Of a stretch of DNA of 64,000 nucleotides, positions 10,941 to 11,598 are shown in pieces. The stretch spans positions 186,001 through 250,000 of the forward strand of contig NZ_CP009501.1 of NCBI RefSeq assembly GCF_000969885.1, read 5' to 3'. Position 1 is the stretch's first letter; each line of letters begins with the position of its first letter. This stretch comes from Methanosarcina thermophila TM-1. Lineage in GTDB: Archaea > Halobacteriota > Methanosarcinia > Methanosarcinales > Methanosarcinaceae. Both the position numbers and the translations under genes were made by a program. Under the pieces are notes generated by a model. It searched no databases. It was not told where the DNA came from and was given only the letters and a program-made list of their open reading frames with translations.

Positions 10941-10977
10941 AAAGTGTTAAATATAAGTTCCATATAGATTTAAATGT

Positions 10978-11172
10978 CTACAGACAGACAATTCCTCCTG
11001 TTAAAGCAGTATCCGGATTTTTCCGTTTCTGTTCCGCCATAAGGGGATGCTAGGCATGAACCCATAACGATTCTCCGGAAATTGCGTTAAGGCTCGGTAG
11101 AGGGATGCAAAGGCAGAAATGTCTTTTGGTCTGATTTCTCGCTTAATGGGCATCCTATCCGGCTATTTTTAT
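10978..11172 (+). ncRNA. Candidate small RNA, about 190 nt
   Basis: A GC-richer segment in an AT-rich gap. A TATA-like TTAAATATAAG (about 10947-10957) predicts initiation near 10979. GGGATGC occurs twice (about 11044 and 11102) and GGGCATCC near 11148, so alternative long-range pairings are possible. A local hairpin AGAAAT/ATTTCT (11114-11119 with 11133-11138) is visible. The segment ends with ATCCGGCTATTTTTATTG, a plausible T-rich terminator. No long open frame. It does not match the RNase P, SRP or guide RNA patterns I know. Confidence 0.4.
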
Positions 11173-11286
11173 TGAACAAATTATTAAAAAGCTTATTTCA
11201 GACCATAAATATTCAAACTTATTTATGAAAATACAAATCCAGAAGTTTTAAAAGTATATATTACATATTATAAATGGGGTGAAATT

Positions 11287-11598
11287 CTGGATTTTAATGA
11301 ACCGAATAGCCAGAAGTACAGCCAGGATAGCCTTGAATAGGAGTTGCACCTTACAAGGCAACTTGTCCTCTGTAAATACGGAGTTCTGCGAGGAAGTAAC
11401 TGCTGCAGCGCCTATAGACCTGAAAACGTTCTGTATCCAACCCGCTGTTGCTGTCTTTACTGTGCAAACTCAATCTGGATAGGGGATGAGAAGAGCGCGA
11501 TAAACCCTTTTGCTGCCCTGAAAGGGGACCCGGTCTATGCAATCGAAGTCGTAAGGGAAGAATCTCCGGATGAGACAGAGATAAAGGCGAGAATCTGA
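11287..11598 (+). CDS. Cys-rich small protein with in-frame amber codon (possible pyrrolysine)
   Basis: One reading frame runs from a GGGGTGA ribosome-like site (about 11276-11282) to TGA at 11598, with a single TAG at 11338-11340. Before it: DFNEPNSQKYSQDSLE. After it: ELHLTRQLVLCKYG, RGSNCCSAYRPENVLYP and TRCCCLYC, then an acidic tail. There is no ATG, GTG or TTG in frame before the TAG; CTG at 11287 sits at the same spacing from GGTGA as other starts in this window. A TATA-like element is at about 11249-11258. The closely spaced cysteines suggest a metal site. Either a gene using CUG initiation and amber readthrough (Pyl is known in Methanosarcina) or a decayed gene. Confidence 0.45.

Follow-up and report, generated by a model that had tools for sequence, protein, structure and literature searches.

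The window analyzed is a 64,000 nt stretch of DNA from Methanosarcina thermophila TM-1, whose genome is one contig of 3,127,379 bases. A small gene at positions 11287–11598 (+ strand) consists of a CTG start codon, 16 further codons, an in-frame TAG, 85 codons and a TGA stop. It is flanked in most genomes by purQ, which is divergent, and by an asnB-like gene. This neighborhood gives no functional clue, and no link to methylamine genes is seen at the locus. The parts of the gene are as follows:

11246–11262, + strand: A+T-rich, TATA-like stretch TTTTAAAAGTATATATT, 25–41 bases 5' of the CTG
11278–11282, + strand: Shine-Dalgarno-like sequence GGTGA, 4 bases 5' of the CTG
11287–11289, + strand: start codon CTG, at a fixed distance from GGTGA
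11287–11337, + strand: N-terminal segment LDFNEPNSQKYSQDSLE, 17 codons
11338–11340, + strand: in-frame TAG, predicted pyrrolysine (Pyl), residue 18
11341–11595, + strand: Cys-rich core, 85 codons here and 73–77 in most other homologues
11596–11598, + strand: terminal stop TGA

The frame from the CTG through the TAG and the core to the stop is read directly from the DNA. An earlier note on this locus had described the TAG with LDFNEPNSQKYSQDSLE before it and ELHLTRQLVL after it, a normal TGA end and closely spaced cysteines, and all of these are present. It had also given the gene a CUG start and a range from 11249. A CUG start is retained, but most likely not at this position, which lies at the upstream in-frame stop; the CTG at 11287 is likelier. 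GGTGA is equally spaced from the start in 14 of the 15 homologues described below and is replaced by GGCGA in L053, a homologue from the sister genus. The start codon itself is CTG in 14 homologues and TTG in one, and the 15 have no common in-frame ATG or GTG that could serve instead. As judged from sequence comparison alone, translation most likely begins at CTG 11287 and not at 11249. The note had also described a TATA-like promoter, without a position. The A+T-rich stretch at 11246–11262 is conserved, i.e., a similar stretch (gttttaaaNgtatata) is seen in nearly all homologues; its promoter function is only inferred. An overlapping frame that begins at GTG 11279 was rejected as coding sequence, since the core's other frames have dN/dS values of 1.6–2.6.

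A separate segment just upstream, at 10975–11180 (+ strand), is probably an independent gene, about 200 nt long, for an unannotated non-coding RNA. Of 31 Methanosarcina genomes, 19 hold similar DNA, as a single copy and mostly at other loci. The segment has a conserved upstream AAAAGTNTTAAATA motif, its 3' end is rich in U, and compensatory change is seen in 8 of 30 consensus pairs. This RNA candidate has no Rfam match, and its single-sequence folding energy is not unusual (z of -0.56).

Homologues of the Cys-rich gene were searched for with the core in 60 genomes, and with a profile across the class (238 genomes) and the phylum (393 genomes). Fifteen intact homologues are present, 11 in Methanosarcina and four in a sister genus within the family. 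The TAG is found at the equivalent place in all 15, in both genera, without a single sense codon, TAA or TGA at this site. The earlier note had suggested a comparison of orthologues for a conserved TAG or its replacement by Lys or another sense codon; only the conserved TAG is found. Four weak profile matches (L056–L059), which were candidates for homologues with a sense codon, represent parts or shadows of unrelated genes. No homologue was found in viral contigs. The presence of the TAG in both genera implies that it is older than their split.

An N-terminal segment of 17 codons is common to all 11 Methanosarcina copies; its counterpart in the sister genus has 10. This difference of seven codons is in frame and preserves the reading frame from CTG to TAG. 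The terminal stop varies between TGA and TAA across homologues, unlike the internal TAG. Directly 3' of the TAG, the residues HLTRQLVLCK are invariant in the 11 Methanosarcina copies and are kept in the sister genus as well, except for one R-to-G change in L053. The three residues that precede the TAG (positions -3 to -1, S-L/M-E) are conserved within Methanosarcina. The core has seven cysteines that are invariant among homologues, in the pattern C-x9-CC-x13-CCC-x2-C. The predicted protein is about 87–103 residues across homologues and probably binds metal, which is inferred from the seven invariant cysteines without binding data. Eleven members were compared with Pfam and show no match at E values up to 10, the MtmB, Dimeth_Pyl and MTTB domains included, and there are no sequence matches to the protein in NCBIfam or PDB. 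AlphaFold2 modeling with seven sequences gives a pLDDT of 38, too low for a comparison of folds; the sole long helix, residues 15–30, spans the TAG and is of low confidence.

The core displays a dN/dS of about 0.07 in the frame of the gene. The N-terminal segment has an in-frame dN/dS of about 0.22 after Jukes-Cantor correction (raw pN/pS 0.37–0.39) and values of about 0.9–1.0 in the other two frames. When the columns of the N-terminal alignment were shuffled, 18 of 1000 shuffles matched the observed ratio. This in-frame constraint before and after the TAG implies that both sides are translated in one frame, in agreement with the earlier description of the sequence as coding-like on both sides. 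Support for translation of the short leader in the same frame as the core is moderate and comes from substitution patterns. The earlier note's proposal would have been refuted if no orthologue spanned the TAG in frame, or if the product were only a short fragment. Neither is the case, and the orthologues are observed to conserve the frame across the TAG.

These comparisons also bear on whether the gene is simply decayed or its TAG a sequencing error. A stop does interrupt the frame, and decayed copies (L012–L014) adjoin the asnB-like gene in three Methanosarcina genomes, two of them 4.87 and 4.53 Mb in size. However, the same TAG is present in 15 genomes together with strong purifying selection downstream, and decay or error, which is scarcely credible here, is refuted by the 15 intact copies. 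The decayed copies do show that loss of the Cys-rich gene is under way in some branches. Its decay in two large Methanosarcina genomes, and its absence from the matches in other Methanosarcina genomes searched, indicate that the gene is dispensable.

Retention of the TAG was compared with the behavior of ordinary stop codons in five 400-kb segments (ORFs of at least 150 codons). TAG is the terminal stop in 67 of 1205 ORFs (5.6%) and is the rarest stop. Among orthologue pairs with a TAG, it is kept as a stop on both sides in 4 of 10 pairs between two sister species, and in none of nine pairs between the thermophila-like pair and acetivorans-like genomes. A three-state model of stop turnover on the gene tree gives a probability of about 6e-4 that all 15 copies have TAG, or 0.015 given one TAG. 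Taken alone, this tree-based argument is of only moderate strength, and TAG can also be conserved as a genuine stop, e.g., in pylB (PMC2933860). A second comparison used a control set of 38 TAG-interrupted frames from 400 kb of the genome that holds the window, none of which overlaps another large ORF. A homologue in another segment is found for 33 of the 38, mostly in the sister species only. The comparison segments represent part of each genome, and for most control frames the sister species was the only one in which a check was possible. The TAG is present in all four other genomes compared for just one of the 38 frames, that of the Cys-rich gene. The conservation pattern of the TAG exceeds that expected by chance.

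The same data can be set against the possibility that the amber codon is neutral, i.e., that it arose by chance, is tolerated through Pyl suppression and has no role. There is a precedent in Thg1 of M. acetivorans, where Pyl is not essential (PMC2933860), and a similar recent event may exist in the genome of the window at G000 ~172010, where the sister species has TGG. With a neutral codon, however, reversion to sense would be expected in some of the 15 lineages and is seen in none, and the TAG predates the split of the two genera. A neutral amber in the Cys-rich gene is thus highly improbable.

The site at ~172010 is an observation separate from the Cys-rich gene. It is outside the window, in a frame of about 614 codons with one TAG (G000:C1 ~170800–172651, + strand), and the sister species codon is for Trp. 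The amber in this frame is recent and represents either a Pyl-suppressed codon or decay.

The machinery for reading UAG as pyrrolysine is present in the genome that holds the window. PylS is encoded at G000:C1:2370006–2370719 (413 bits), and a tRNA-Pyl gene with anticodon CUA adjoins pylS. There are also TAG-bearing methyltransferase genes, one mtmB, three mtbB and two mttB, with one TAG each. PylS is found in all four sister-genus genomes as well. The suggestion in the earlier note that UAG may be pyrrolysine gains support from these genes, but the Pyl residue itself is unobserved. In M. acetivorans, an amber codon introduced into a reporter of no relation to Pyl genes yields Pyl at 20–30% without a special signal; most reading of this UAG results in termination, and UAG is both a stop and a sense codon in these cells (PMC2933860). 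From this suppression, at least partial incorporation of Pyl is expected in the Cys-rich gene. Decoding as Pyl is therefore an inference from the presence of the machinery and from the published suppression in M. acetivorans (PMC2933860).

RNA signals were considered as well. The PYLIS element is not essential for Pyl decoding (PMC2933860), and a search for a PYLIS-like structure downstream of the TAG gave no Rfam match. A predicted hairpin across the TAG folds in only about half of the copies, namely the thermophila clade with a few additional ones. An RNA element was rejected as the reason for TAG conservation, since the hairpin is absent from several copies, the whole sister genus included.

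One property of the sequence counts against Pyl decoding. The second codon after the TAG is start-like, being TTG, CTG or ATG in 14 of the 15 copies. Translation could begin at the CUG, produce a leader peptide of 10–17 residues, stop at the UAG and restart at the NTG codon 3 bases downstream, with no Pyl involved. The leader is under weaker constraint than the core, and UAG mostly terminated translation in the reporter test (PMC2933860), both of which are consistent with re-initiation. However, this codon is TTA in L053 and there is no invariant downstream start. The core is also without a Shine-Dalgarno site, and GGTGA and the TATA-like stretch are situated at the CTG. Any stop would serve to end a leader peptide, yet the rarest one is kept in 15 of 15 copies, and in Methanosarcina the conserved S-L/M-E residues extend right up to it. 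Two successive non-ATG starts would be required in addition. The gene does resemble leader peptides and attenuators (uORFs) in its short translated leader, stop and conserved ORF, but it differs in its fixed TAG stop and in a core that has neither its own Shine-Dalgarno site nor an invariant start. Re-initiation is considered unlikely.

The best explanation is that UAG is decoded as pyrrolysine in one small Cys-rich protein, with an estimated probability of about 0.77. Transcription would begin a short way 5' of the gene, and ribosomes would initiate at CUG 11287 via GGTGA. tRNA-Pyl would decode UAG 11338 as pyrrolysine, and elongation would continue across the Cys-rich core and end at UGA 11596, with a product of 103 residues in M. 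thermophila. The seven cysteines may hold a metal or Fe-S center, which is inferred. Pyl carries an electrophilic imine in its side chain, which may be positioned on an N-terminal helix beside this center and serve in its chemistry. Alternatively, Pyl decoding may function as a gate that allows the protein to form only if charged tRNA-Pyl is available.

The gate represents a sub-case of Pyl decoding in which UAG either terminates translation or is read as Pyl, and the full-length protein is formed only with plentiful charged tRNA-Pyl. Gating at methylamine growth would then be of importance and not the chemistry of the residue. The UAG is near the N-terminus, where termination gives just a 10–17 residue peptide, the cells use UAG as stop and sense (PMC2933860), and the invariant TAG is situated in a poorly conserved leader. 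However, the locus is without a visible link to methylamine genes, and no data here distinguish a gate from a plain Pyl residue. The gate is possible but doubtful, and sequence cannot separate it from a role in chemistry.

Under Pyl decoding, the Cys-rich gene is similar to mtmB, mtbB and mttB in that the TAG is in frame, is conserved across species and is found in genomes with pylS and tRNA-Pyl. The methyltransferases are enzymes of 450–500 residues, in contrast to the ~87–103 residue protein without a Pfam match. The codon context differs as well: GAA TAG GAN in the Cys-rich gene, compared with GTC TAG GGC, ATA TAG ATC and TCC TAG TCT in the methyltransferases. Outside the methyltransferases, TAG is read as Pyl in Thg1 and is presumed to be read in transposases and a TetR gene. 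Among Thg1 genes the TAG is limited to M. acetivorans, TAG-free close relatives exist for the transposases, and the TetR cluster is known from two species (PMC2933860, PMC1914089). The Cys-rich family differs from these in that TAG is universal and no TAG-free homologue was found. Small Cys-rich metal-binding proteins, e.g., zinc-ribbon-like and Fe-S proteins, are similar in having closely spaced cysteines, of which seven are invariant here, but no Pfam, NCBIfam or PDB family matches the Cys-rich protein by sequence.

According to a 2021 review, the Pyl proteins beyond the methylamine methyltransferases comprise only some transposases and one Thg1 (PMC8211752), and Thg1 is the only such protein in which Pyl has been physically observed (PMC2933860). 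The main texts of three computational screens for Pyl do not name the Cys-rich gene; their supplements are not covered by this statement and an earlier mention is possible. The gene is invisible to an ORF search with ATG, GTG and TTG starts, and its CTG start and TAG would hide such genes from screens. M. acetivorans carries a copy, which provides a small and genetically tractable test case, and growth of this organism on methanol or acetate reportedly survives the loss of Pyl decoding (PMC2933860). The broader proposal is of a dedicated family of Pyl proteins beyond the methylamine methyltransferases, with no non-Pyl relatives, where Pyl is selected for its imine chemistry or for expression gating. 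This proposal is favored, but only by a limited degree. If true, a TAG that is never lost in the family would show that pyrrolysine has been recruited for another purpose.
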